Of a DNA stretch of 64,000 nt, positions 16,215 to 63,962 are shown piece by piece. The translations under genes and the position numbers were made by a program. The stretch is from positions 248,001-312,000 of the forward strand of contig WION01000027.1 of NCBI GenBank assembly GCA_015039365.1, read 5' to 3'. Source of the DNA: Amanita rubescens. Taxonomy: Eukaryota > Basidiomycota > Agaricomycetes > Agaricales > Amanitaceae. The notes beneath the pieces were generated by a model, which had not been told where the DNA came from, made no database searches, and saw only the letters and a list, made by a program, of their open reading frames with translations. The stretch's first letter is position 1, and every line of letters starts with the position of its first letter.

Positions 16215-19200
16215 CTATGGTGTATAACAGTGAACCCAACCAAGACCTATCATGGCCTGACAAAAGTCAACAGTGGCAAATCCAGAACGAGAAATGATGA
16301 GGATGTTTAAAGGTGAAAGCAATCCAACTTCTTGTGGCACCCACATAAGGTAGTTTTGCCGCTGAGAAGAAATAATCCAATTTGTGTTTGTCAGATTCCA
16401 AGGAAAGTACTCATCAACACATCCCACACTTGCAGACTTGTCATCCGAGCTCACAATCTGCATCCCATCGCTCGAAAACGCGACCGATCTGACCGACCCG
16501 GTGTGGCCCTTCAGCTCCTTCAGCTCCACACCTGTCGACGCATCCCACACCCGCACAGACTTGTCATACGAGCCAGACACAATCCGCGTCCCATCGCTCG
16601 AAAACGCGACCGAATTGACCAACTCGGTGTGGCCCTTCAGCTCCTTCAACTCCACACCTGTCGACGCATCCCACACCCGCACAGAGTTGTCAGACGAGCC
16701 AGACACAATCCGCGTCCCATCGCTCGAAAACGCGACCGAAAATGACCAACCCGGTGTGGCCCTTCAGCTCCTTCAGCTCCACACCTGTCGACGCATCCCA
16801 TACCCGCACAGAGTTGTCATCCGAGCCAGACACAATCCGCGTCCCATCGCACGAAAACGCGACCGAAAAGAGCCACTCGGTGTGGCCCTTCAGCTCCTTC
16901 AGCTCCACACCTGTCGACGCATCCCACACCCGCACAGAGTTGTCATCCGAGCCAGACACAATCCGCGTCCCATCGCTCGAAAACGCGACCGAAAAGACCG
17001 ACCCGGTGTGGCCCTTCAGCTCCTTCAGCTCCACACCTGTCGACGCATCCCACACCCGCACAGACTTGTCATACGAGCCAGACACAATCCGCGTCCCATC
17101 GCTCGAAAACGCGACCGATCTGACCGACCCGGTGTGGCCCTTCAGCTCCTTCAGCTCCACACCTGTCGACGCATCCCACACCCGCACAGACTTGTCATCC
17201 GAGCCAGACACAATCCGCGTCCCATCGCTCGAAAACGCGACTGAATTGACCCACCCGGTGTGGCCCTTCAGCTCCTTCAGCTCCACACCTGTCGACGCAT
17301 CCCACACCCGCACAGACTTGTCATACGAGCCAGACACAATCCGCGTCCCATCGCTCGAAAACGCGACCGATCTGACCTCCCCGGTGTGGCCCTTCAGCTC
17401 CTTCAGCTCCACACCTGTCGACGCATCCCACACCCGCACAGACTTGTCAAACGAGCCAGACACAATCCGCGTCCCATCGCTCGAAAACGCGACCGAATTG
17501 ACCGACTCGGTGTGGCCCTTCAGCTCCTTCAACTCCACACCTGTCGACGCATCCCACACCCGCACAGACTTGTCAGACGAGCCAGACACAATCCGCGTCC
17601 CATCGCTCGAAAACGCGACCGAATTGACCAACTCGGTGTGGCCCTTCAGCTCCTTCAGCTCCACACCTGTCGACGCATCCCACACCCGCACAGAGTTGTC
17701 ATCCGAGCCAGACACAATCCGCGTCCCATCGCTCGAAAACGCGACTGAAAAGACCGACCTGGTGTGGCCCTTCAGCTCCTTCAGCTCCACACTTGTCGAT
17801 GCATCCCACACCCGCATAGAGTTGTCATCCGATCCAGACACAATCCGTGTCCCATCGCTCGAAAACGCGACCGAAAAGACCAACCCGGTGTGGCCCTTCA
17901 GCTCCTTCAGCTCCACACCTGTCGACACATCCCACACCCGCACAGAGTTGTCAGACGAGCCAGACACAATCCGCGTCCCATCGCTCGAAAACGCGACCGA
18001 AAAGACCGACTCGGTGTGGCCCTTCAGCTCCTTCAACTCCACACCTGTCGACGCATCCCACACCCGCACAGAGTTGTCAGACGAGCCAGACACAATCCGC
18101 GTCCCATCGCTCGAAAACGCGACCGATCTGACGAACTCGGTGTGGCCCTTCAGCTCCTTCAGCTCCACACCTGTCGACGCATCCCACACCCGCACAGAGT
18201 TGTCAGACGACCCAGACACAATCCGTGTGCTGTCCCCTGAAAATGCAACAGCCAAGATTGATCCCCCAGCTGATACCGTCATCAATGGCAAATCAATACT
18301 ACTGCCTTTGGTATGCGTAAAGACAGGGATGCGAGTGAATTGGTTTTTCCACTTCCGAGAGAGACTAGTTTCCCGCGACCATGTTGCCAACGCCGAGATG
18401 TACAGATGCGGTGTCGATTCGGCAGCCGGGCTCCCAGCAAAATAGGTAGCAAAATTGGCAGCTTCACCAAGGTCACGTGCCAATTCCGAATAACTGTTCC
18501 CGTACTGACCGACACCGTTAGTTCTTGCAGCACAACTCAAGCCTTGCGATCCATACCTTCAATACCCACTGACGTGCATGCTGAAGCATTGGGGTACACT
18601 GATTGCATAATCCAAGCAAATTCATACCCTCGATCCAGAACAGGACACGAATTTGGAGGAACTCCGAAATGCAGCAACGAAGATTATCGGTATTGATCAG
18701 CTGGGGCAATGGCAAGTGGTCAGTCCAGTGGCGAGATGAGTACCTAAGAACAGCAGTGATGTTCTGGTCAACCTGCTTAGACAGCGCAGCGGCGTTGTCG
18801 CAGTCGAACAGGAAGGATGAAGTTATATCACCCATGTTGAATCGCAAACTGGACTTCATGACGCCGAAGCAAGATTCACCAAGAAGATTGTGGTGGGCTG
18901 GTTCGTTACATGAAAACAGAAAGTTCTTCTCACTAACGCGGAAGTTTGACCGGGTTGGATCAAAAATGAAGTCGGGGAACGAGGCATGGTACCAAAAAAC
19001 TCGATCGTCCTGGGTATATAGCACGGAATGGAGATTATCCAAAACGGCCTTTGCGGCTTCATTATCGTTGCCTGCGATGAGCGCAGCAACGGTGGAGGGT
19101 GATGTGCGTTCAGCCGTACATAGGAAGGTATAAAGGATATGCAATCGGCGAGTCAAGATATTTCCTTCGAACTCCGAAAAGGCGTCGTGCAGAATTTGGC

Positions 19201-21247
19201 GGTATAATATGTCGATTAAGAATGTAGCATTTGCGGAAGCCGATTTGGAAAGGAGATTGTTAAGCATCTCGGTCTGCTCTTTAGAGGAGATCGAGTTACA
19301 CCGGGTCAAATACCTCACCACCGTCGCAGCGTAGATGAACAGACCACCTGCCTGTTGTCCAACCTCGGCCAGCTCTGGACTGCCAGCAAGCTTCGGCAGC
19401 TTGATGTTCAAGTACATTTTGATGTCTGACTTTGCCTCTTCGATCGGCACGTCTTGGAGACGACAAACAGCCTCGGACGCGAAGGACTCGCAGAGTGTAG
19501 CAATTTTAGGATCTGATCGACTGGTCACGAGAAACTTCAAGCCTCTGAGATCGTCTTCGTTGATTGCTGTGAGTAGGTCGCGCAGAAACGCTGACCCTCC
19601 GTTGTCCATGATCTCGTCGAGAGCATCGATGACAATGAGGTAGGGTGGTAGTTTAGGGGAGCGTGTGGCTTCGGACAGTTGCCAAGGTCCAAGAAGAAGA
19701 TTCTTTATCTGGCGGGAGACGTCGTGATTGACTGCGTCGAATTTGTCGGCAACATGCAAAGCGTTTGCATACGATTTGCATTTACGAGCAAGCTGGTAGG
19801 CGATGGTGGGAAGGATACGGGTCTGGCCTTGCGTTTCTTGGTATTGTCGTGAGCAGAAAAAGTTGCCGCCCAGGACGGTGAGCTCGTTGGCTTCACCATC
19901 CTTCTCGAATCGTTTGGCTATGGTATACGCAATTGTGGTTTTGCCGGAGCCAGCTTGACCAGTAAGCCAGAAGACACGCGGGCTCTCAGATGAGCAATCA
20001 TTAGCCCATTTGATAATATCTTCCAATATCTTGACACGTGTTCCGTCCGTGCACACTTCCCGCTTCAGGCCCTGCTCTTCGAGAATAGTATTGTGGTCGG
20101 CCTTCTCGGAGGGACGCAGGCTTTTTAGGGCCTCTTTCTGTTCAATCAATCAGTGTTGGTCACAAGCCAGGAAACCGAGATACTTGCCTTGATGTCGTCG
20201 TGTATTATGTTCGCCGTTTCCTGGATGCTGTTCGCCATTTCGAACTGGGAACAAACAATGAGCAAATACATAAGCTTAGACGAATATAAGAGTATGGACC
20301 TGGAAGGATGTCGTAGCACCATTTACACGTTGAAAGATTTGGCCGATCATCTTCTGATATTCTTCATGGTCTAGCGTTCGTATGGTCAGCGATTTACAGG
20401 TGAGGTCTTCTAACTTCTTCATTTCTTCCTGAAGGATCCTAGATGGCGACGCGTTCATTGTGGTATACCAATTGACGCAGGGAGGACGACGTACTGTTTG
20501 AGTTTCTCCATCTCCTGTTCGGCGGCCTTCGGAATACCGATAGCTACAGTCCTCTCCACAGCCAGGAGTCTGTTCGCCGTTTCTTCGAGACGTTGTGCAA
20601 GCTCGTCCTTGTTGTCTGCGACTGCCTGAGATAAAGATTAGTCTGTGCTCGAGATACAGAGGCGAGAACCCACATCTTTTATCTCGATGATCGCCTTAGC
20701 AATGGAGAATGCCATCTTAACTGGATTAGTCTGGATGCAGTCCGGCAGCTTCTTGAGGAGCGTTTGGGCGAACCGCGAAGCTACTCCAAGACCCTGTTTT
20801 GTAGTCGCCTTCCAATCAGAATTAATCGACGCTGGTTCTTCAGTACGAGTCGGATTTCGCGGCCGTGCTCGAAGTCAATTCTCAGACGCAACAACCGAGC
20901 GTATTGCAATCTCACCTTGAACAGCGGAACCCCGCAGATCCGGAATGCTTGATGAAAGATGTTTTACTGACTGGAAGGGGGTGGTAGGACCTGGATAGTG
21001 GGCTGAGTCCGCTAGATCTGTGAGGTAGAAATCCATACCCTGATTCAAGGTAGCATCGGTGCCTAGAGAGAGTTTGTTTGAGTCAGATAAAGCTAAGATG
21101 GGACTACTTACTTGAAGATGCATAGGAGATGGAAACCCGAGTTGAATTCGACGGGCTAGCTGAGGCGCTGGCTGATTTGTGCTGCTTAACAAGGGACTTT
21201 ATGTTCTTGAATATCGTTCGTGCAGTGCCTTTACGTCGGTCGGCCAT
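16215..21247 (-). CDS. NWD gene: NACHT NTPase with WD40 propellers (STAND)
   Basis: NWD proteins are fungal NLR-like STAND receptors; in Podospora relatives (HET-E/HET-D) the WD40 repeats recognise partners in non-self recognition. I start at ATG 21247 (MADRRKGTARTIFKN); an upstream in-frame ATG is at 21298. Introns: 21063-21111, 20626-20673, 20439-20494, 20245-20299, 20138-20187 (GC-AG) and 18505-18556 (branch-like AACTAAC). One more near 20840-20910 is unresolved. The N-terminal region is helical (KMAFSIAKAIIEIKDAV, NKDELAQRLEETANRLL), compatible with a HeLo/MLKL-type bundle. NACHT follows: P-loop GQAGSGKTT near 19945 and LIVIDALDE near 19630. Then APAAES-type linker and 14 WD40 units, and the usual C-terminal tail LMWVPQEVGLL...GWVHCYTP. 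One extra base near 16742 shifts the frame after blade 12. If real it truncates the protein, but the tail stays conserved in the other frame. Confidence 0.9.
16440..18250 (-). repeat. 14 near-identical 126 bp WD40 units
   Basis: Each 42-residue unit reads VxSVAFSSDGTRIVSGS, xDxSVRVWDASTGVELKEL and KGHTxx. Units differ mainly at the two residues after GHT, the residue after V (R, F or N), and around SGSxDx (S, D, Y or F; N or K). The DNA between these positions is almost invariant, as expected for concerted evolution by recombination with diversification of the ligand-facing positions. A fifteenth unit at the C-terminal side is degenerate (VSSDDKSASVG). Fourteen units equal two seven-bladed propellers. 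Confidence 0.9.
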
Positions 21248-28738: not shown

Positions 28739-31700
28739 ATGAATGACAGTTTCGGTGAAACCGTCAGTCCAGTTGCAGCGATTAGAGCGATTTTACATGA
28801 CTATCCATTCTCTGCAAGCATTCTTCGTGAACTATTACAGAACTCGGATGACGCGAGGGCAAAAAAGCAGGTTAGTCCAATGCCACTCACGGACCCATCA
28901 GCGTTTAACAAAGTTCTAGATCTTTGTCCTCGACGTGGGGGATGACCCGGCCTTGATAGCTTATAACGATTCTCAGTTTCAAGAAGAAGACTGGAAAGCA
29001 ATCCAAAGCATCCACGAATCGTCCAAGAAGGCGGATACCTCGTGAATACTTCTACCTATTTCCGCACAATCAGCGGCGACTAATCTGATCGTCAGTAAAA
29101 TAGGAAAATATGGTGTGGGCTTCAGGGCTTGTTACCACGTACGTCCATTTGTTTCGCACCAGGCTACAGACACTGAAGAGCATGCAGGTCACCGATCGAC
29201 CTCAAATCCTTTCTGGGTCTTCGTTCGCCCTTCTCGATCCCCTTCGCTCAGGCGGAAAGAAAATTGGATACGATGAATTCAAAGAATCAGATGACCGCAA
29301 ACGTTTTGATTTCTTCTCGGACGTCTTTCAACCTTCTTCTTTTCCCGGCACGATCATTAGATTGCCGCTTCGGTCGTCACCTAGTGACCTAAGTCAGCAT
29401 ACCGTGCTCGTGCCAGAACTTGACCAAATGTTGAGAGATTACATCACCGCAGAAATGAACATTTCTCTACTATTCCTCGACAATCTCAGGACGATCGAAG
29501 TATGGAAAGCTCGCGGTACCAACAAGACGTGCCTAGCTACGTGGACTAAATCTGATAACACAGTTGAACGCCAAAGTGAAGAGTCTCAGCTCTCCATCTA
29601 CGACTCAGTTTTATCCGACGGGGAAACAAAGTTCTCCTGGCGCATTGTTCAAACGCAGGATGCCGAAGACGAAGCCAAGTCCCGTCTCTCGACCCAGGTT
29701 GGCGGCGAGACTGTGAATCACGTCTTTGAAAAGCATAAATTGCGCCCTGAAATGCGAATTGCTTATCCATTGTTTTCTGACGAATACACCTCCGGACGCC
29801 TCTTCACGTTCTTGCCGTTGCCATCCAAAACAAACTTCCCTGTACATATTCACGCACTGTTTGCGTTGACTTCATCAAGACAAAGCTTGCGCAATCGTAA
29901 CGAGACGGGAATCGTAGCTGGTTCCGACAACGAGTACGCATATATCTCATTTTTTGATCCGATTTTAAACTGAAAACCGTTGGTTAGCGTCTTAATCAAG
30001 TGGAACAGTCTGTTGTTCGATTACTATATTCCGCAAGCTTGGAGTCGACTTTTGAAAACTTTGGCTGAAGACGCCGTTTGCAAAGATATTTTCAGAGCTT
30101 GGCCTCCCTACTGTTCGTCCATAACGTCTGGTGATGGGTTGTACTGGCAAAACATTCTCCAGGCGACGTTTAACTTTGCTGTCCAGTCCGGTTTAGCAAT
30201 CTGGCCGAAAGTATCGGTGACAGACACAACGACATATGTAGACTTGAAGTCGTCCCTTGTGGTGGCTAGGGGCCAGGTCGACTTGGATGTGCTTGTTGCC
30301 TTGGCTCAACTTGGTCTAACGTTGGTTCAATTGCCTCAAACTCACATGACATTCCTCGATGGCTCTATAACCAAGTTGACTCCGCGGGTTGCTCGAGACC
30401 AACTTGCGCTACGTGGCTTGGTTTCTGCGGGATTCAATGCTTTGTCTCACAACCAAAGGAGGATTCTGTGCGCCTACTTCCTATCGGATCAGGACTTTAG
30501 CAGCATATACGGTCTTCCCTTGTTCCCCGTCCTGAATGGATCATACATATACCTTGAAGATAGGAAAACGACAACTCGACGCTACATTGCCCTGGCCACT
30601 GATGAAGTCGACATATTCGGAGCAGCAGCGGGCGACGCTATATCTTTAGATCAGTTGCAGCCCGAAGTAGCTGCTCTGGTACGAGAGAAGGGAACCACTC
30701 AGGCCAACGTCGATCTGCTTTCTCCATCGTCTGTCATTGCTTTCTTGTCAAGCGAACCTAAGCCCCGCAGCGAAGAGGATTTGGCAAAGTTCTGGTCTTG
30801 GTTAAGCGAATGGTCTCACCGAAAGCAAGCCATGATATTGTTCAACACCAATGATTCGCTTCGTCTTATTCCGACGTCAAAAGGACCTCAGCTCGTCTCG
30901 TCTCCCGTATTTCGGGTGCTAGGCGATCGCTTGTTTGAGAAGCTTGGACTCGCCTTTATCAGTCCTCTCCTTTCGACTACAGTGGTTCAATTCCTGAGTA
31001 ACCACAGAGTCGTTAGAGACATGGATGATATGAACGAGTTTTTAGCTGCCGTCGATTTGACTGGATTGCAGCCTCTCAGCAATGACGAAGCAAAGTCAGT
31101 CTTCGACCATATCTCTTTTTGTTACAGGCCACTTTCCGCGGGCAACTTGACCAAGTTGAAGAAACTTCCCGTTTTTCCTGTTTTGGTTCCCTCCACGACA
31201 ACTCAGTCTCTGATCGTCGGTAATACTTGTGTAGAGTGGCGTGCCATCGACGGTCTTACCGTCAATGGGATTTCACCTATCCCGCTCATCCCTTTGACCG
31301 ACGAGATCAAGTTCCTCGACCAGTCTTGCTTTAGCAACCCTATATCCCCTTTGTTGAAGGCACTGAAAATATCCGTCCTCAAGGACAAAGACATTTTATT
31401 GCTGGCTCTCGGTCAATTTTCTTCACAGCCAAAGTCTCTTCAAGCCTCCTTTGTCTCCTATATCCGAGGAAACCTCAGATGGACCAATAGTGTTACATCG
31501 GTACTTGGGAAGACACAGTTTATTCGGGTAGCAAATGGTACCTTGCGATCGCCAGTCGAGGTTATCGATCCAAATTCAGGGATTAGAGGTCTTTTCCCAA
31601 TGGATTCTGGCGGCCTCCTTATCCCAACGGTGGAGGATGGTTACGATCGCCAGATGCTCGATGATCTCCGGAGTCTAGAGATGATGAAGACATCCTTGTC

Positions 31701-34700
31701 CTTCGACATGATGCAAGAACGAATTTCCTACATCTCGTCAAATCGCGCGTCAGCCGACGCGTTGAGTATTGCCCGTTCCTTGCTATCTCTCATGAATGAG
31801 CCGAATTTCCTTTGCTTTGGGTTTTCTATCGACCCCTCTATGTGCTGGTTACCAACACGAGTCGGTCTCGTCAGCTCCAAAGAGGGCATTGATAGCAGCC
31901 GTCTGGATACTGACTTGTTTGACGAAGTCCTCGCTCCGCTCGATGAAACTATTACGATTTCACCTTCTTTTCGAGCTCTCCTAGGCTGGGACAAGCCTCT
32001 TCCCTTGAGCATTCTTACGAGGCAATTGGATCGTGTTCTGGATTTGCCGGGTTCGGATGTGCAATATCGCAAAGTTCGTGGGATAATACGAGAATTGGCA
32101 GGTCGCCAACTTGGACATGCGGACATCAAAGCTATAGAAGAATGTGTTGCTGAACGGCCTTGGGTACCTACCGAATCCGGTGTTTTGGCATCGCCGTCTC
32201 GTGCTGTGTTCTTTACTGTGCCCGGTTCAAGCTGCTTTCATGAAATCGGTTTTTCGCAGGCAGAGAAACAAATAGGTTCGTTCTTGCTGAGGATGGGATG
32301 TCAGGAACGGTATGTTTCCATTATAAGAAGAAACGGATTCATTTGACAATCTACCTAGACCTTCTGCCTCGGCGATTATAAGCGAACTAGCTGCATTACG
32401 TGAAAAAGAAGGGATGGATATCACCGTTATTCAGCAAGCGGTGCAATTATTGGAAATGTTACCCGAATCCATCACCGACCAAGAACGAGCCTCTCTGTTG
32501 GTTCCGACAGATACTGGAGATCTCGTGCCATTGCATTCCGGTGTATTCTATTATAGAGGCGGGATCAACGTCAACGACGGAAAGACGATCGTAGCTCATC
32601 ATCTTATTACTGAAAAACTTGCGGAGAAGATTGGAATGAAGCATTTGGGCCTCGACGAAGCGGATAATGACATTGACTTGGGAGGAAAGCCTATCACTAT
32701 CATACGCAACACTCTTAAGCAATACGATCCTAAACAATTCTTTACGGAATTCATCGCCAACGCATCAGATGCAGGCGCAAAACGGTTCAACATCCTCCTT
32801 GACAGTCACGAGGGCCCAACGGAACGCCTCCTCTCGGAGGGACTAGCCGTATTTCAGACTGCATCGTTGGTCGTACATAACGACGGGACCTTTTCTCGGG
32901 ACGATTTCAGAGGGATATTGCAGACAGGTATTGGTGGAAAGACGGGAAAAACCGGCGTCATTGGTCGCTTTGGACTAGGCGCTCTCTCGATGTTTCACTT
33001 TACAGAGGTGAAAAATGGTGCAACTGATGTTCCGAATACTGATATCTTTTTTTGATCTAGTTGGCTATGATTGTCTCCGGGGAACATGTCCTTTTTATGA
33101 GTCCATCAAAGAGAAACTTGTCGTTCTGCGGGAAGCACTCGCTTCTCCTTCCTTTGCAGAGCGTGAAAAGGTAATAATCATTACAAATCTATACTTTGTA
33201 TGTTCATTCCTCGTTCTAGGCTATATGCTGATCATCTTGAACCATTGGATGGATTGTTTGGCTTCGATCTTCTTTCCACGGAGCCGTACCAAGGGGTTTG
33301 TGACATTCCTTTCAAGTACTTCGCCATATTGATGCATTTTTTCAGACTTTGTTTAGGCTGCCGCTGAGGAACGAATTCCACTCAAACCAAGATTCTGCAT
33401 GGACAACGCACTGGAGCTTAGAGACGGCTCGGCAAATGCTTCTCGCCGAGTTTGACAAGCTAGCATACAAGTCGCTTCTTTTCACGGGGCTTGGTTGTAT
33501 CAATATTTATAAACGGCAGAGGGTCGATATCAAAGTTCTTCGCGTCCTCGAAAGCACCCGAGAAACGCACGATTCTACGCCCGACGACTCATACACGTCT
33601 GAAACGGTGGCATTTAAATCAACAAACCTGCATCTACCCAAATGGCTTATCGTCACGATGCCCGTCAATATTCCAGAACTTTTCAAAGCAGAGCTTGCGA
33701 AGAAATACGACATGCATCACCTTCTGCCGATGCGCATTGCCGCAACGTTGGATAGTGACCAAGTTCAGAAACACGAATATAATCTCTTCTGTACTTTGCC
33801 CCTGCCCGTCACCACGCCTCTACCAGCCCACATATCTGCTCCGCTAATCCTAGAACAGGAGAGGCGGAACGTGCGCATCGACAGTGACCGAATTGGTATA
33901 GAGTCCGAATACAACCAGTGGTTATTATCGTCCCAAATGCCGCTGTTATTCCTCTGCTTGCTCGAAAAGCTGTTGCAAATTCACAACGACAATGTTCAGT
34001 GGTGGCCTGAAGAGAAAAAGAGCACTGATAACAATATCAATGTTTCGAGCAGGGTCTTTTTAGACGGGTTCTGGGGTGATGAAATTATCAAAGGAAGCTC
34101 AAGACGTATCTTCGTCAGCAAATATAATCCTACGACGTTCCTTAGCCCCAAGGACGCTGTTTTATTCTCTAAACATGTTCGCGAATATTTGGGATGCGGT
34201 CCGACGCTTTCCAAAGTCCTTTCTGTTACTCAGCCTCCGAGCGTCGTAGAACTTCCTAGACTGCTGTTTGAACACACAAAAAAGGCGATGTTGCGTTCTA
34301 TCGATGGCGAATTCCTTAAAACGCTGTTGAGTGGTTTCGGCGAGTTCAGCTGGTTGAATATGGATGAAATTCGTTCCTTGTTGGTATACCTGCTGGATAG
34401 CAAGGTGTCATTGGATGGTCTATCACTGATTCCGCTCGATAATGGTTCCTACGCGAAAATTCAGACGCAGTTCACCACGGCGAATTACATTGTAGGCTCG
34501 TTGCAGATGGCAGCCTACACGCTTTTCCCGGCCAATCGTCTTGTAAATCGGAATTTCAGGGTTCCAGAAGAGCTCTTGAAGCGAAATGTGAATGTATCAA
34601 GTTTATCTAATCCAGCGATGGTAGGACTCGTCGAAGAGCGCATCAAACCTGGACATGCGCTGACTGGAAACGAGGCAGATCAAGCTTGGATCGCTTCGTT

Positions 34701-37077
34701 CTGGGAAGCTAGTAACCTGAGCATTCCGCCATCAATGATTGCGCATCTTCCTCTGATTCCAACGTTGCAACCTCGTCATTTCATCTCTATGAGAAGCATC
34801 AACGGCCCTTCTGTTATTGTTGTCGATGCGGAGTTGAGCGCAGAAAATTTTGACTATGGAATCTTGCAGAAGATTGGAATGACTGCCGTCCTCAAAAGAT
34901 ACGCCCTGCTTGCAGTAGAGGGAGGAGGGAAAGGGAGGGGAAAGGGCAAGGGCAAGTTGACGAATTTCAGAAAATTCTTGGAGTATATGGAGAAAAACCA
35001 GTCAGAAGGACTTGACGCAATCTCGTATCTCGAATCTAACGATCACGAAGAGCTGGCTCGCTGGGTTAGGCTAAAGTTCTTGTCCACTCCATCGCACTTG
35101 GTGGATGTCGCCTCTCGGTTGCCCGTCTGGCGTGTTCAACAACGTGGTAAACCTGCTCGCCTAGGCGCCCTGAACGATGCTGTCATCCTTCCTGCCTCTA
35201 TGCCATCCAGCTCGTTGTTACCTTTTACAAATTTTCCAGTCATAGACTGGGACTTTGGGATGCGGATCATTGATAAAGATGTGTGCAGTGCAAAGCGTAT
35301 CACCCAGCTCTTGCGTGTCTCTTCCGGCACTATTCTCCGCTCTCAAGTTGAGCGAACAGGGTACAAGCGGTTCTTAAAGGACTTCCTGCTTTTGGAAAGG
35401 GTAGAGGGATATTCCCTATTAGTACCCAACGAGGGATGGGTTCTAACGCCAGTCGAGAGATTGTTTGAACACCATGAACTCTTTCTCGTGGCCTTCAGAG
35501 CATCTCCTGAACGTCTCCTTTTAAATGACTTCCAGGATATTGCGGAGTCTTTGGAAAAATACGGTTTGAATCGGAAGCGTCGACTTAATCTTGGCATGTT
35601 CATAGAATGTGCGAAGGCATTTGATCAAGACGATGATGACGACGACGGAGAAATCGAAGACGAGAACAATGAAGATAACGGCAGGCACTCACGAAACAGC
35701 AGGCGCTCACGGTCCGTGGTACTATATCGATATTTCAATGGACTTTCCCTCCAATATCAACGTGACGCTCGTCGGTGCGGGGAACTGGATCAACTCAAAT
35801 TTATTCCGAGCGACACTACCGAGAGGATGGGCTACGACGGGATCAGCTTAAAGAGGTATATGCGGCGCCATGTACTCTCTCCCAGTAAAATTGTTCTTCA
35901 CGAATACGAACCCATCTGTTGGAGCCAGAGGGGTCGAGTTGACCCCCAACCCAACCCAGCTCTAAGCGGTACTTATGAAAGTTTGGGAAAGCCCACCGGA
36001 AAAGAAGTCGTATGGGTCATTCTTTAGTTATTATTATTGATTCTCAGTTATCATTATTCTATAGGTGAAACACCTCAAGGTCCTTGCTGAGATTGGTCAA
36101 AAGCATGGTCGTCGCTCAGCGCTGCTGTCAGACCTCAAAGCAACCTACAAGTGGCTGGACGAACACGTAGAGGATATTTTCGCAGAGATTACGAATGAAA
36201 ACTTCAACAAAATATTCCTCAATGTCGATAATCCTGATTCTGACGAGTGGGTATGGCATTCCGCTTCCTCCCTTGTCAAGGATCTACAAGACGTTGGAGA
36301 GCTGCACGACGTGAAGAGTTTCCTTCGGCATTACGACGACCTGTTGAAAGCAGCTAGCGTCAGGACGATCCAGAAAGTAACGGCTAAACCTATCACGGTT
36401 GTAGACAGGACATCGTTCTATCGACAACAATTCTGTGACTTGCGTAAACGAGGATTCGACGTCAGCGTCACCTTTAAAGCCAAGGACGATGAACATGAAA
36501 TATTGCCTGCGCACAAAACCTGGTTGCTTATGAACAGCGAGCATTTCTGGCAATTGTTCATAGGAGCAGGTCTTGGGGAGGCCCAAGGACATGGTTCTGG
36601 AAATCTTGTGCCAGTGATCGTGCCAGACTACTCAAGCCTTTGCGTCAAAGAGACTATTGGTGAGTATTCATATAACATTCTATTCTATGCCTTTTGACCG
36701 ACCCGATGATGGCGCAGATTGGATATACGTCGGCGAACTGCCAGAGTCGATTACCAGTCCAAGTAACGGTGATGAAGAGTCCAAGGCTAAACTTGATCTG
36801 ACTCTGGAGATGCTCAGCCTCGCCCACTTTTGGGCTGTCACTGGTTTGCATGAACGCCTCCAAGAGTTTATTATCAATGCGCCGGATTTCATCAATCCTT
36901 ACTGGGTTAAAGATAGTGAGTTGCACGATTCCAAGGTCTGTCTCATACTAATTGAGATTTGCAGTATACGAACATGCAAAGCCCGCAGAAGCGAAGGAGC
37001 TTTTGAGAGCTTGTGAAGAATTCGAGGAAAAGAACCGGGACATTATTGACGGGGTGCCGTGGAACGTCGATGGTTGA
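28739..37077 (+). CDS. Sacsin-like protein with two Hsp90-type ATPase modules and C-terminal BTB
   Basis: Twelve exons with clean GT-AG introns: 28739-28870, 28920-29041, 29096-29138, 29188-29933, 29988-32309, 32359-33007, 33061-33170, 33220-33295, 33346-36009, 36065-36659, 36718-36915, 36965-37077. They give 7,770 nt, 2,589 residues, with no disruption. The start is the first ATG before the ATPase. Module 1: ILRELLQNSDDARAKKQ (N-box), VLDVGDDPALIAYNDSQF, SSKKADTSKIGKYGVGF (G-rich lid), RACYHVTDRPQILSG. Module 2 from about 32690: FFTEFIANASDAGAKRF, VVHNDGTFSRDDF, GVIGRFGLGALSMFHFTE, and FGFDLLSTEPYQGTLFRLPL. This is the sacsin repeat pattern, linked in animals to Hsp90/Hsp70 proteostasis. The last about 210 residues form a BTB/POZ domain (FDVSVTFKAKDDEHEILPAH, TIDWIYVGELPE), suggesting dimerisation or a cullin-3 link. 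An acidic run lies near 35625. The module order is inferred by eye. Confidence 0.9.
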
Positions 37078-58850: not shown

Positions 58851-59008
58851 CAGTAGACTTGCTCACAATGAGTAACCTACTAATGTATGTGTACATACAG
58901 TAGTTGCTCATATTCATCATCCTTAGGCCAAAGACAGTGCTCATAATCCATTGGAAAATGGTCATTGGTGGGAACAACTGCTAGTATGCATTATGAGCAA
59001 GTCTACTG
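58851..59008. mobile_element. Tc1/mariner-like MITE, 158 bp
   Basis: Terminal inverted repeats CAGTAGACTTGCTCA (then C or T, AATG) face each other at 58851 and 59008, and each is flanked directly by TA, the usual Tc1/mariner target duplication. There is no coding capacity. It lies 246 bp beyond the 3' exon of the micro-exon gene. Confidence 0.8.
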
Positions 59009-59253
59009 TAACAACTTCTCTCACAATGTCTAGAACCAATGCAACTTTCATAAATAGGTATAGCTCTGGATGGAATTTGTGCAAAATGGGACAAATCATG
59101 TAGAAAGGGCTGAGGGAAGGCATAAAACATGGCATATGCTAACATGTCCTAGGTGCTGTCTTGGAAATTGATGTTGTTCATGATCCTTGCTATAGAAGTT
59201 TGAGCAGTGCATCATGGACATGAAATAAATTGTTACTCAACCACATACCGCTA

Positions 59254-62200
59254 TCAGATTTGTGCTATGAGTTCATAAATGAATCCATGTAGATCTTGAT
59301 GATTAGAAGGCAAAGACACTGAAGTAATGCAAGTTTTCAGTTTCTCCACATAACCATCCCTTTTGAACTGATCCAAAGCCTCCACAATTAATTCCTCAAA
59401 TGGCTGGATTTTTTGAAACAGTAGCTTGGAAATGATTGATTTCTTGGCTGGCTTCCCTATCCAGAATGAGAGTTTTGCAATGATAGCCATTGCTTAAAAA
59501 TATCAGTCCCTTCAATGAAATGTAAATAACAAGTATGCACTACCAGCTAAAATTTGACAAGAAGTAGGCTAGTTGCAGAAGCATCAATTGACAATTGCTG
59601 TATCATGTGAGGAAAGAGAAATCTTACATTTGCTGAAAATATCTGTGATTTTCTAAATAAAGTATGAAGTTGAGGCTGACAATGGAAAAAATAAAGATTC
59701 TGAATTTGACTTGGTAGTGGACCTACAAACTAGATGAAGTGTAGTACATTAGCTATGCATCACAGATGCAGGAATGTGCCTTACAGTTGCTGAGAATGGT
59801 GCTGATTTATCCCCAAACAATGAAAGTAGTTCAGGCTGATCACAGGAAGAATGAAAAATCAAGTGCAGTATTGGAGTGGACATACAATCTAATACTAGAT
59901 TAGCATGGTATTGATACTTTGTGGTGTTTCTCACCTAGCAGGAATGAACTATGAGAGAATGTCAAAATTGAAAGTATATCATCTTACAATCTATGATACA
60001 GGGATGATTGTCAATGTAGCACAGAAATAGATTTTCATTTACTTTCTGTCAAATGTATGTCAAAATGCAATGTCTTAGATGAAATCCCAATTTCACTTAC
60101 TCTCTGCATTTATGTGAAACATCATGAGAAAAAAAAGCAAAAAGAGTACTACCACTTACTTTCTGTTGTTCATAGAAAAACAAATGTTAAGAGTGTCAGG
60201 TGATGGAGGCCTGGTGTCACATACAATCTAATTATAGTAATGAGATAGAACTGAAAGAAATGTTGTCACTTACAAACTATTTATCATGAGAGGTGGCATG
60301 AGGTGACATGTTGGACACAAATGATGGTGTTACTCACTTTCTGTTGCTCATAAAATGTGATGAGATAAATTGCAGACCATAAAGGCTGTTGTAGTAAACT
60401 CACATGCTATTATGTAGTTGTAGGATGTGTTAAGATAAGGCCACCCAATGAAATGATGAGCTCACCCTCTGTTACAATTGATATTCATTGCTAAATTAAT
60501 GTGGGGTTCCACTCACTTTCTATTAAGATAACATTTGTTGCAACTGTTGTTGCAAGAAATTGCTGAATCACTTACATCCTGTGACACATGATATCAGATC
60601 TAATAAATTGTTCACAAAGAGAATGTAACTTTCTCTCTGTTGGTTAAGAGAAGTTGTAATTATGACAGCTTGGGTTTTTGGACACAAGTAAAAGATCACT
60701 TACTTCCTGTTAATCAGGTTTGCTTAGAGGTCCAAGTAGAGACAAGAATAACATCACTGACATGCTGTGGGTGGAACATATGTTGGCCATATTGTGAGAA
60801 GTGATGAGATGGTGGTCAGGAAAAAGCAAATGCAATATTACTCACATGCTGTTTGTAATAGAATGAGACTGCATGGTAAGGAATAAAGGTGGTGCCACTC
60901 ACTTTCTGTTAACCATAGGATGAGCTGCAATGGCACTTGATAAAGGGGGGAAAAGGTATCACTCACAATCTATTGGTCATGGGATGAGCTGCAATAGGTA
61001 AAAAAAAGAATATTGGCACTCACTCCCTGTTGTACATGAGAATCCATAAGACTGCATGGCAAAGAAATGCAGCATCACTCACATACTGTTGGTCATGGGA
61101 TGGAATGCAATGAGAACACATGTCAGAAAAAATGCAGTGTCACTCACTGCCTGTTGGTCATGCAAGAGACTGAATGAGACTGAATGGTAAAGAAAGAAAT
61201 ATGTGACACTCACTTCCTGTTAGTCATTGGGATGAAATACAATGAGACTGCAGGGTAGAGAAAAACATTTCAGTCTTGCTCACTTGCTATTAGTCATGGG
61301 ATAAAATGCAATGTGACTGCAGGATAAAACAAAAATGTAGTGTCACTCACATTCTGTTGGTTATGAGATGAAATGCAATGAGACTGCATGGTTAATGAAA
61401 CTCACAAACTGTTGGTCATGAGATGAAATGCAGTCAAGACTGTATGGTAAAGAAAAAATGCAATGTCCTCACTCTCTGTTGGCCATGGGATGAAACACAA
61501 TAAGATTACTCAGTAAAGAAACACATGCAGTATCACTCACAAACTGTTGTTCATGGGATTATGCTGCATGGTAAATTAAAAAATGCAGTGTCACTCACTC
61601 CCTATTTTCCATGGAATGAAACACAATGAGACTGCATGGTAAAGATAAAATGCAGCATAACTTACATACTGATGGTCATGTGAAAAAATGCCATGAGACT
61701 GCAGCATGCTAAAGAAAACAATGCAGTGCCACTTACTCCCTGTTGGTCATGGAATGAATGTAATGACTGCATGGTAAACAATGGAGTGTCACTCACAACC
61801 TGTTGGTGATGTGAGACTTTGGGAATGCAGCATGATAGAGAAAAAAAATGTCACTCACATACTGTTGGTTGCAAGATGAAATGCAATGAGACTGCATTCT
61901 AAAGAGAAAAAATGCAGTGTCCTCACTGTCTGTTGGCCATGAGATGAAATGCTATGAGAAAATGCAGTGTCACTCACTTCCTGTTGATCATAGGATGAAA
62001 TGAAATGAGACTCCATGGTAAATAAAAAATACAGTGTACTCACATACTGTTGACAAAATCCATGATGCAGTCTCATTAAATTAAAAAACGCAATGTCACT
62101 CACTTCCTGTTAGTCATGAGATGAATTGCAATGAGACTCCATGGCAAAAAACAAAATAGAGTGTCACTGACATGCTGTTGGTCATGGGATAAAAATTCAA

Positions 62201-63962
62201 TCAGACTGCATTGTAAAGAAGAAAAATGCAGTGTCTGAGTCACTCACTTCCTGTTGGTCATGGGATAAGATGCCACAATGAGACTCCATTGTAAAGAAAA
62301 AGCAGTATGACTCACTTCCTGTTGGTCATTGGATGAAATGCAATGAGACTGATAAAGAAAAATGCATTGTCACTCACATACTGTTGGTCATGGGATGAAA
62401 TGCAATGAGATTGCATTGTAAAGAAAAAAATGCAATGTCACTCACAAACTGTTGGGTCATGAGATGAAACACAATGAGAATGCATAGTAAAGAAAACAAA
62501 TTTAGTGTCACTTGCTTCCTTTTAAGGTATGACATAATCAGTTTGTCAGGCTGCACCAAGTGCTTCAGCATACACTCACTGTTTGACAGGAAAATGAATT
62601 AATCAGTTTGATTAGCCAGAAGGCAGCAACACAAACTCCCTGTTGTTAAGATAACAACATCTGGTATAATCCAATAAATAATGAAATTGCTCACTCTTTG
62701 TTGTTTTGCATATGTTGGGACAGCATTCAGAAAACAGACATGTAATATCACTCACTTCCTGTTGGTCATTGATGGACTGTCATTAAGGCACAAGTAGCAC
62801 TTCCACTCACTGCCTGCCAAGCATGCAATACTGAGACAATCATTGCAGATGTATATGCAATTCCACTCACTCCCTGTGACATATTGAGATGACTTTCCCA
62901 CACAAAAAGAGATACAGTGCAACTTACAGCCTGTTGGCCACAGGTTGTGACAGGATTATACTCTTTGGCACAGTGAATGCATTGTTGCTCACAATCTGTA
63001 AGCCATCAGATGATTGAGATGTAAGAGGACAAGATCACATACTTCCTATTAGTGAAAGAACATGGTGACACTTCTTGCAATTGGGAATATTTCATCACTT
63101 ACATCCTGTATCATGATACAGGAGATGCATTACAAGTGACTTCTTGGCCAAAGAGAGTTACCACTCACTGCCTATTGATTATAGCATGAGATACAATTTT
63201 AATTGCCTCAGATAAGAGTTTAAATTACTTTCTGTTTATCAGATGGTATAATTAAATTATCACAAAAGTGCACTATCACTTACATGCTATTGCCTATTGT
63301 AATATTTCCTGGATATATAAGTAGCATCACTCACAAACTATTAGTTGTGAAGTCAATACTGATTAAAGATCAATTGAAATCACTTGCCCACTGTTGTTAA
63401 AGGCATCAGATTTACTGCAAGAAGTCGTAGGGTTACTCACATCAATGTCATTTTGTTGCTTGATACAACATTGTCTCAGGAATTATGAAACATAATTGGC
63501 AAATTCAAGTCAACATACATCATCCTTATTTGTTTAGTCAAGGCAATCATGAAAGAAAAAAATTGTGATACTCACATCAACCTTGAATTTCAAATAATAC
63601 ATAATTGCTGGCACTTCACTTCTTTTAAAAACATGCTTACCTCTCTGGCAATCTAGTTTCAACTTAGACTTTAGTGTATGTGAGCCTTGTTTGTACTTAC
63701 CCAGTAATGTGGAAATTTGCTCAGTACTATGATAAAGGCAGATTCCAATGAGGCTTCCTCTCGTTCCAAGACATGTCTAGACACTCAACATTTTATAAAA
63801 GAAACCCAATTTAGTGTGATACTCACTCAAGTCCAGATTTAACACAAAGGTCAAGATTGTTCATTTGTGTTGAAACAAACAGTTCTTGTAGACTGGCATC
63901 ATCAATCACATAGGCTGTCTTCTCACTCAATTCAGGACAGTCATTTTCTGGTTTATCCATAT
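59254..63962 (-). CDS. Micro-exon gene, about 66 exons, predicted 207 aa
   Basis: The first coding exon in view, 63827-63960, starts ATG (MDKPENDCPELSEKTAYVID) after TACTAG|AT. Exons 63701-63726 (26 nt), 63641-63644 (4), 63576-63581 (6), 63519-63524 (6) and 63441-63458 (18) follow. Then come 56 three-nt exons between 63390 and 59544 (for example TGG 63388, GAA 62516, TAT 61859, AAA 60043), plus 60630-60636 (7), 59785-59789 (5) and 59628-59632 (5). The terminal exon is 59254-59492 (AMAIIAKLSFWIGKPAKKS to FIYELIAQI, stop). Introns are about 40-110 nt, GT-AG, with GC donors before 63388 and 62516 exons' downstream introns. Spliced in order the total is 624 nt, open throughout, with phase preserved. 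The product is Met/Lys/Asp-rich and probably helical (MKNMNMKHMLDMDLDLIKK), with a basic C-terminal half. No family is recognised. An upstream exon beyond the window is possible. Confidence 0.7.
59535..63395 (-). repeat. Tandem array of (intron + 3 nt exon) units
   Basis: Units of 46-85 bp carry, on the minus strand, a polypurine/pyrimidine intron body with CATTTCATCCCATGACCAACAG-like ends, then NNN, then GTGAGTGACACTGCAT-like starts. The core 60850-62520 is most regular and the flanks are more diverged. The three bases between AG and GT vary (18 kinds among 56), while AG and GTRAG are kept even in strongly diverged units. The 3 nt cores start at 63388, 63335, 63284, 63229, 63169, 63103, 63043, 62993, 62928, 62871, 62811, 62756, 62637, 62516, 62446, 62378, 62316, 62248, 62172, 62104, 62044, 61978, 61927, 61859, 61797, 61737, 61666, 61599, 61541, 61473, 61406, 61351, 61284, 61214, 61148, 61083, 61024, 60967, 60903, 60846, 60762, 60704, 60576, 60517, 60466, 60404, 60338, 60274, 60225, 60160, 60101, 60043, 59988, 59886, 59727, 59544. 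Confidence 0.85.

Follow-up and report, generated by a model that had tools for sequence, protein, structure and literature searches.

The stretch of DNA analysed here (the window) comprises 64,000 nucleotides (nt) of Amanita rubescens contig WION01000027.1, positions 248,001 to 312,000 of the forward strand (assembly GCA_015039365.1). Between 59254 and 63962 its minus strand carries a gene in which splice sites recur three bases apart, dozens of times in succession. With a probability of about 0.92, this gene belongs to a large family of P-loop GTPases in Amanita, in which the middle part, lying after the G domain (..FPHYW) and before a conserved C-terminal exon, is read one residue per phase-0 exon of 3 nt, the introns (about 60 nt) being spliced out and the codons joined. 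An initial annotation of the window, made from the letters alone, had pointed to this locus.

A count of the pattern YAG-N(k)-GTRAG in the 59.25-63.96 kb interval of the minus strand gives 44 for k=3 and 0-2 for any other k from 0 to 12, which bears out the initial annotation's description of units with exactly three bases between the splice sites; the count of YAG-N(3)-GTRAG on the plus strand of the same interval is 0. Chains of exons were searched with splice-site matrices that had been trained on arrays outside the window and that used intron-side bases only, so that exon length was not favoured. When exon length was left free, 48 of 74 exons in the window gene came out at 3 nt, and when exons were restricted to stop-free multiples of 3, this was true of 52 of 56. 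As a control, eight arrays were reversed or reverse-complemented and searched with free lengths; they gave 0-2 three-nt exons each, compared with 35-71 on the true strand. In the final model, the length of the array exons was fixed at exactly 3 nt, whereas the positions of the outer exons were chosen manually with the alignment to the paralogue as a guide. The model comprises 67 exons from 63962 to 59254, which join into a single open frame ending at a stop at 59254. Fifty-six of the exons have 3 nt, in agreement with the figure of about 56 given earlier, and 54 of these stand in a row (63390 to 59988). The spliced stretch measures 710 nt, that is, 236 codons plus stop; the single open frame proposed earlier is therefore retained, whereas its length of 624 nt and 207 codons is not. 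Three units of the array are weak, namely 62514 (donor gtgaca), 60632 (donor gttaca) and 60519 (low acceptor score).

The closest paralogue (C124:109700-116200) aligns with the window gene over about 6 kb, starting upstream of the window end, and its exons encode a P-loop GTPase with the motifs GRANAGKTT, HDSQGFE and TKFD. Because the upstream exons of this paralogue encode the GTPase, the exon at 63827..63962 must be internal rather than the first. It had been taken as an exon of 134 nt (63827-63960) in a stand-alone two-exon protein. The exon itself stands, but it measures 136 nt and lies inside the gene, additional small exons occur on both sides of the array, and the supposed protein is actually the tail of a GTPase gene that starts beyond the window. 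In five proteins scanned, Pfam MMR_HSR1 (PF01926) reached 16.1-19.3 bits, below the gathering score of 21.9, and a few of the listed relatives carry a precomputed PF01926 annotation. The family thus has GxxxxGKT, DxxG and TKxD in common with agaricomycete MMR_HSR1-like G-domain proteins but falls below the Pfam cut-off. Pfam scans of the family proteins found no NACHT and no ankyrin, just weak GTPase-type and chance matches, and a PDB profile search gave 0 matches at E 0.01. The 120 proteins listed for the assembled query include homologues in Mycena, Suillus, Jaapia and others; the DNA of the microexon-coded middle was examined in A. rubescens alone. All four Amanita brunnescens entries that were fetched stop 6-23 residues past FPH(Y/F)W, and among the 120 listed proteins no species-named one covers more than 69% of the query. 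Both observations warn that gene annotation breaks at microexon arrays.

Evidence for splicing comes from homologues on contigs of transcript size. P0001 is a protein of 478 amino acids from a JGI contig of 1,486 nt. For the array at C1:30.9-34.3 kb, exons were called as stop-free multiples of 3, and only the 3-nt exons were compared; their residues, called from the splice sites, read DWESADNAAAKERQYYDDGVHAGYGYYGGEKISEKERDKRKDFVEREIL, and the matching segment of P0001 reads DWFESADDAAGKEREYYDDGIHSGGYGYYGGKKISEKERDHRRDFVEREIL. The two agree in order at 41 of 49 residues, with a score of 214 compared with a maximum of 59 among 1,000 shuffles. Since the family gene on C1 spans about 5 kb of genomic DNA and the contig only 1,486 nt, the contig is most simply explained as the spliced messenger RNA of a homologue; from its size it would be a complementary DNA. 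The microexons thus appear to be spliced together in a close homologue. Similarly, P0002 (1,506 nt) scores 84 on the same array against a shuffle maximum of 50, and P0004 (1,492 nt) scores 92 against 54; these two proteins have almost the same ends and different middles. Four of the 120 listed proteins cover 99% of the assembled query, all on contigs of 1.5-1.7 kb, and P0001, P0002, P0004 and P0012 are full-length and transcript-sized, each with more than 30 residues in the array interval. A profile search returned no further full-length transcript-sized protein beyond the four among the 120 of 272 matches listed, and when residues 300-478 of P0001 were used to look for additional full-length homologues, P0001 alone was returned. 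A 60-nt exon at 62.6 kb (GVCVAAFWLIKLINSFSCQT), preferred in earlier models of the window gene, was left out because no such insertion is present in P0001, P0002 or P0004; it may nevertheless be genuine. Another JGI protein, P0137 (239 amino acids, contig of 2,135 nt), has its N-terminus in common with the annotated C1 protein P0055 and stops before the array; it probably represents the C1 gene or a close copy as transcribed, with the frame broken or unspliced.

The array triplets behave as codons. In a sample of 259 kb (stretches of C1, C2, C190, C1b and C1c), none of the 245 strict units holds a stop triplet. Genome-wide, TAA or TGA is found 4 times as the first triplet of a pair of units, compared with about 358 expected (6.3%), a value obtained by arithmetic from the base make-up of the 245 triplets. 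Only 56 of 508 microexons have G or C as their third base, whereas in four regular exons of the window gene 88 of 229 codons do (p 7.5e-17); we read this low third-base G/C as a splice-site constraint.

The same layout recurs throughout the genome. Successive pairs of YAGNNNGTRAGT units, 30-60 bases apart, number 5,683 in 75.7 Mb, compared with 1 for the pattern read backwards. At control spacings, paired units are found 11 times for 6 nt (control 11) and 8 times for 4 nt (control 66). Twelve modelled arrays hold 587 three-nt exons per 253 strict pairs, and by extrapolation the A. rubescens assembly would hold about 13,000 such exons, near-identical duplicate contigs counted in. All 13 arrays of at least nine units that were fetched and checked sit between GTPase exons and the C-terminal exon of the family, and a four-unit array at C1:764 kb gave no family match. 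The C-terminal exon was scored at 150 matching places, the window copy included, of 216 candidates in the genome. Tail-to-tail gene pairs, with their C-terminal exons 0.8-1.8 kb apart, were observed at C1:105-116 kb and on C170, C154, C168, C23, C67 and C770. The stretch C170:53001-68000 is near-identical to C1:103-118 kb (99.9% over 12.2 kb) apart from an extra piece of about 1.1 kb, and may represent a second haplotype, an assembly duplicate or a recent duplication. An allele comparison for selection between C170:53-68 kb and C1:105-117.5 kb was set aside, as the two are too close for use (99.9% identical, 99.3% in a shorter adjoining piece).

Arrays of the window subfamily are present on C1 (two), C776, C650, C124 and C190. 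With one exon per residue, they start approximately with WFExADxxAxxER and end approximately with KERDKRxxF(L/V/I/F)KREI; the dozen or so microexon residues at either end form a common frame around centres that vary in length and composition. Arrays of a second type begin approximately with WFEKGKxxD and abound in G/L or in Q/L/E/K. One of them, at C190:184.5-191.5 kb, comprises 79 exons of 3 nt plus six of 6 nt (CAATCT, CAATAT, AAATCT); its Q/L/E/K-rich product (C190:184501-191500) looks coiled-coil-like by eye. The amino-acid make-up varies among the arrays (chi-square 183, 110 degrees of freedom, p 1.5e-5).

Two other explanations of the window array were weighed. A satellite or tandem repeat might resemble splice sites by chance and contain no exons; indeed, Tandem Repeats Finder reports diverged repeats with periods of 51-126 nt (main rows 67-68 nt) at 61061-62496. 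However, of the 3.4-kb array no more than 1.4 kb falls within these rows, and the 3-nt spacing runs on through the remainder. Moreover, stop triplets are avoided, the paralogues encode a common peptide, and the residues of P0001 follow the order of an array, a match that 1,000 shuffles come nowhere near. A satellite is therefore extremely improbable, and the view of the initial annotation, a genuine micro-exon gene and not a satellite, is upheld by the genome-wide 3-nt spacing, the stop avoidance, the peptide frame of the paralogues and the transcript-sized homologue. Alternatively, the array might be excised as a single long intron or mostly skipped, so that the GTPase is joined to the C-terminal exon and inclusion of microexons is minor or noise. 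Skipping of any 3-nt unit would preserve the frame, and one annotated protein, P0043 (C650:813001-817000), bridges the G domain and the C-terminal exon almost directly over an array of 24 three-nt exons; from this protein, skipping of a whole array is conceivable. On the other hand, the four full-length proteins hold residues in the interval, three of them beat every shuffle on the arrays, and the flank residues are common to paralogues, which routine skipping would not keep. Excision or predominant skipping of the whole array is consequently very improbable. The entry on C650 is perhaps an example of annotation failing at arrays.

Several further observations, like P0043, weigh against reading the array as single-codon exons. 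No transcript of the window gene itself was seen; P0001 is a homologue, whose best listed A. rubescens match is about 90% identical. Among the other transcript-sized contigs, three give no convincing match to the arrays: P0010 reaches a best score of 45 against a shuffle maximum of 41, and P0012 and P0015 score below their own shuffle maxima. Of five regions taken from upstream of close copies of the C-terminal exon, two contain no array (C86 with one unit and C439 with six units, in 6.5-7 kb). Two units of the window array, 60632 and 62514, appear damaged, and in the unit at C1:32499-32502, where P0001 has S, AG and GT are separated by 4 nt; the latter could be a sequence error, a damaged unit or a skipped exon. 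Avoidance of TAA and TGA may partly be avoidance of an overlapping donor (AG|TGAGT). TAT, which likewise makes an overlapping donor after AG, is nevertheless frequent (16 of 245 triplets), so that donor avoidance is probably not the whole cause. Finally, the flank microexons are identical to the closest paralogue at 61 of 72 bases, little above the intron interiors (873 of 1,087), and this comparison of codon and intron conservation is not decisive. The identity of the centre codons to the same paralogue (35 of 57 bases) was left unused, because tandem units may be mispaired.

The introns offer some insight into how the arrays arose. Their median length is 59 nt (453 introns between 3-nt exons, drawn from the 40-85 nt range), and introns inside one array are up to 93% identical beside nearly unrelated codons. 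Where the two introns of a pair match at 88% or more (57 pairs), agreement at the first base of the upstream codon is 0.47, compared with 0.31 expected; the other five codon positions are at chance (upstream 0.26 and 0.46, expected 0.31 and 0.44; downstream 0.35, 0.28 and 0.44, expected 0.30, 0.31 and 0.46). Tandem duplication of [intron + codon] units followed by neutral drift, as in ordinary repeat expansion, would account for related introns within an array, for paralogue centres that differ in length and for the agreement at the first upstream base. It does not fit the chance values at the remaining five positions, nor the profiles of intron similarity, which barely drop from lag 1 to lag 15 in the three arrays profiled (0.70 to 0.69, 0.59 to 0.58 and 0.63 to 0.59); we regard it as rather unlikely. 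The data favour introns that arrived, or were homogenised, independently of the codons. An introner-like burst, in which one short intron was copied between pre-existing codons, or intron conversion while selection kept the codons different, is somewhat better than an even prospect. It agrees with the largely decoupled histories of introns and codons, with the flat lag profiles, and with the arrays at C1:104.5k, C1:132.6k and C190:184.5k, whose encoded centres differ and whose introns are as alike between genes (0.82-0.85) as within genes (0.81-0.89). Against it, insertion at every 3 nt is not known for any introner; the gapped-identity measure has a shuffled baseline as high as 0.72, and several of 11 arrays reach only 0.73-0.75 within themselves, too diverged for this measure. 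In addition, a search of the 259 kb with the array-intron profile brought up no convincing copy except in arrays of this kind, so that a free-roaming introner is not in evidence: of 25 matches outside the seven listed arrays, nine with E <0.5 lie in the small-array stretches of C1b and C1c, and the remaining 16 have E >=0.51. Introner-like elements of fungi are described as near-identical short introns multiplied in a genome, in unrelated genes (passages of PMC4457414), unlike the array introns, which within the 259 kb were found just in arrays of this kind and at 3-nt spacing.

In the proposed mechanism, the spliceosome would remove the introns of about 60 nt and join the single codons into a continuous protein. 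The two splice sites of an exon as short as 3 nt cannot both be occupied simultaneously, so removal would be sequential and intron-defined, each step laying down one codon and recreating a 5' splice site three bases on. A skipped unit would cost one residue and keep the frame, and as the loss of a unit would never cost the frame, arrays may be able to persist and vary. Because each unit is a whole codon, any subset could be dropped without a frameshift, and a very large set of variants per gene would be possible. This order of splicing, alternative skipping and a recognition-type function are proposals; that the family acts in recognition or fungal immunity is conjecture, prompted by the Tuber nank genes discussed below and by immune-type GTPases. 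Put together, one short intron may have invaded an Amanita GTPase family between successive codons, with a fast-changing segment now read codon by codon through stepwise splicing as a variant-rich, evolvable recognition surface, convergent with the NACHT-ankyrin receptors of Tuber; this combined scenario is tentative, and we consider it possible rather than probable. If borne out by RNA, the arrays would mean that the spliceosome can join about 50 consecutive 3-nt exons, by extrapolation at some hundreds of genes in one genome, an arrangement that exon-definition models do not accommodate. They offer a natural test system for the use of splice sites three bases apart, for intron gain and for the splicing-made diversity of a fungal GTPase family.

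The initial annotation was not aware of any gene described as having dozens of 3-nt exons in succession. The nank (NACHT-ankyrin) genes of Tuber melanosporum have multiple, up to tens of, codon-sized microexons of 3 bp, which are alternatively spliced (Iotti et al. 2012, as cited in passages of PMC3689799, PMC4986451 and PMC10197012); the claim overlooks these genes, and the passages are silent on whether their exons are consecutive. Both systems have tens of codon-sized microexons (56 in the window gene) in an expanded fungal multigene family, and alternative splicing of the microexons is a reported feature of the nank genes. The Tuber genes encode NACHT-ankyrin receptors of an ascomycete, whereas the present ones are basidiomycete P-loop GTPases, with about 13,000 three-nt exons by the estimate above. 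Codon-sized microexon genes are thus already known in one ascomycete family, and the novelty here lies in the phylum, in the family of GTPases concerned, in the scale and in introns so alike beside such unlike codons. No basidiomycete gene with arrays of codon-sized exons was found in the open-licence literature searched, whose long result lists were seen in part.

In recursive splicing, a 3' splice site is followed immediately by a new 5' splice site, and 0 nt are left. The present arrays likewise have adjoining 3' and 5' splice sites, probably with stepwise removal, but 3 nt would be left per step (245 occurrences at k=3 compared with 17 at k=0 in the 259 kb). In the micro-exon genes (MEGs) of schistosomes, the coding region consists mostly of short exons of symmetric length, longer than single codons, and the products are short secreted proteins with a signal peptide. 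Short symmetric exons, whose skipping keeps the frame, are common to both systems; the present exons are single codons in a GTPase, no signal peptide was noted by eye, and the N-terminus of P0001 is cytosolic-looking by eye. Schistosome MEGs are expressed in cell masses making secreted proteins (passages of PMC5825161). Cytochrome P450 genes of the basidiomycete Phanerochaete chrysosporium have microexons of 2-10 residues, a shortest exon of 6 bp and introns of 45-55 bp (passages of PMC1184071). They are similar in their very short exons, short introns and expanded family, and differ in that those passages describe no single-codon arrays.

Table. Exons and introns of the window gene in order of transcription; five exons (76, 12, 6, 6, 18 nt) precede the array and six (14, 3, 5, 3, 5, 25 nt) follow it before the last exon.
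Feature	Position	Strand	Basis
Earlier exons with Walker A, DxxG, TKFD	outside the window, C190:312001+	-	tblastn of P0001, paralogue alignment
Internal GTPase-gene exon, 136 nt, ..DMDKPENDC..LQELFVSTQMNNLDLCVKSGL	63827..63962	-	final model, tblastn of P0001, paralogue alignment
76-nt exon, end ..LSKFPHYW	63701..63776	-	final model; equal length in C124 paralogue, donor weak there (GTACTT)
12-nt exon IARE	63641..63652	-	final model; equal length in C124 paralogue
6-nt exon VD	63576..63581	-	final model; equal length in C124 paralogue
6-nt exon DD	63519..63524	-	final model; identical in C124 paralogue
18-nt exon QQNDID	63441..63458	-	final model; C124 paralogue has 15 nt, HNNID
54 consecutive 3-nt exons reading WFHKADEIAGAEGQFYEEHEYETYVGYGFRFNQEAYGIKHHEKDKRHKFIKRKI	59988..63390	-	spacing count, chain searches, final model
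Array ends: first exon TGG with GC donor, last exon ATT	63390-63388 (first), 59990-59988 (last)	-	
Array introns, mostly 46-73 nt; extremes 39 and 81 nt and two long introns of 116 and 122 nt	59988..63390	-	
14-nt exon	59935..59948	-	final model; exon and donor conserved in C124 paralogue
3-nt exon ATT	59886..59888	-	final model; conserved in C124 paralogue
5-nt exon CAACT	59785..59789	-	final model; exon conserved in C124 paralogue, donor weaker there
3-nt exon TTT	59727..59729	-	final model; exon conserved in C124 paralogue
5-nt exon CAAAT	59628..59632	-	final model; conserved in C124 paralogue
25-nt exon, restores frame for last exon; donor gtagtg weak	59544..59568	-	final model; 25/25 nt identical in C124 paralogue
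Last exon, carries stop	59254..59492	-	final model; genome matches

Directly downstream of the window gene, at about 58860-59010, lies an inverted repeat (TGAGCAAGTCTACTGTA) that is perhaps a small transposon, as judged by eye. Elsewhere in the window, several long open frames on the plus strand (29110-36697) look like parts of a very large, sacsin-like protein. On the minus strand, 16452-20149 encodes a P-loop protein (GQAGSGKTT) followed by WD40-type repeats, with 14 copies of a 126-nt repeat that are 94% matching; we take this protein to resemble fungal NOD-like receptors of the NACHT-WD40 type.

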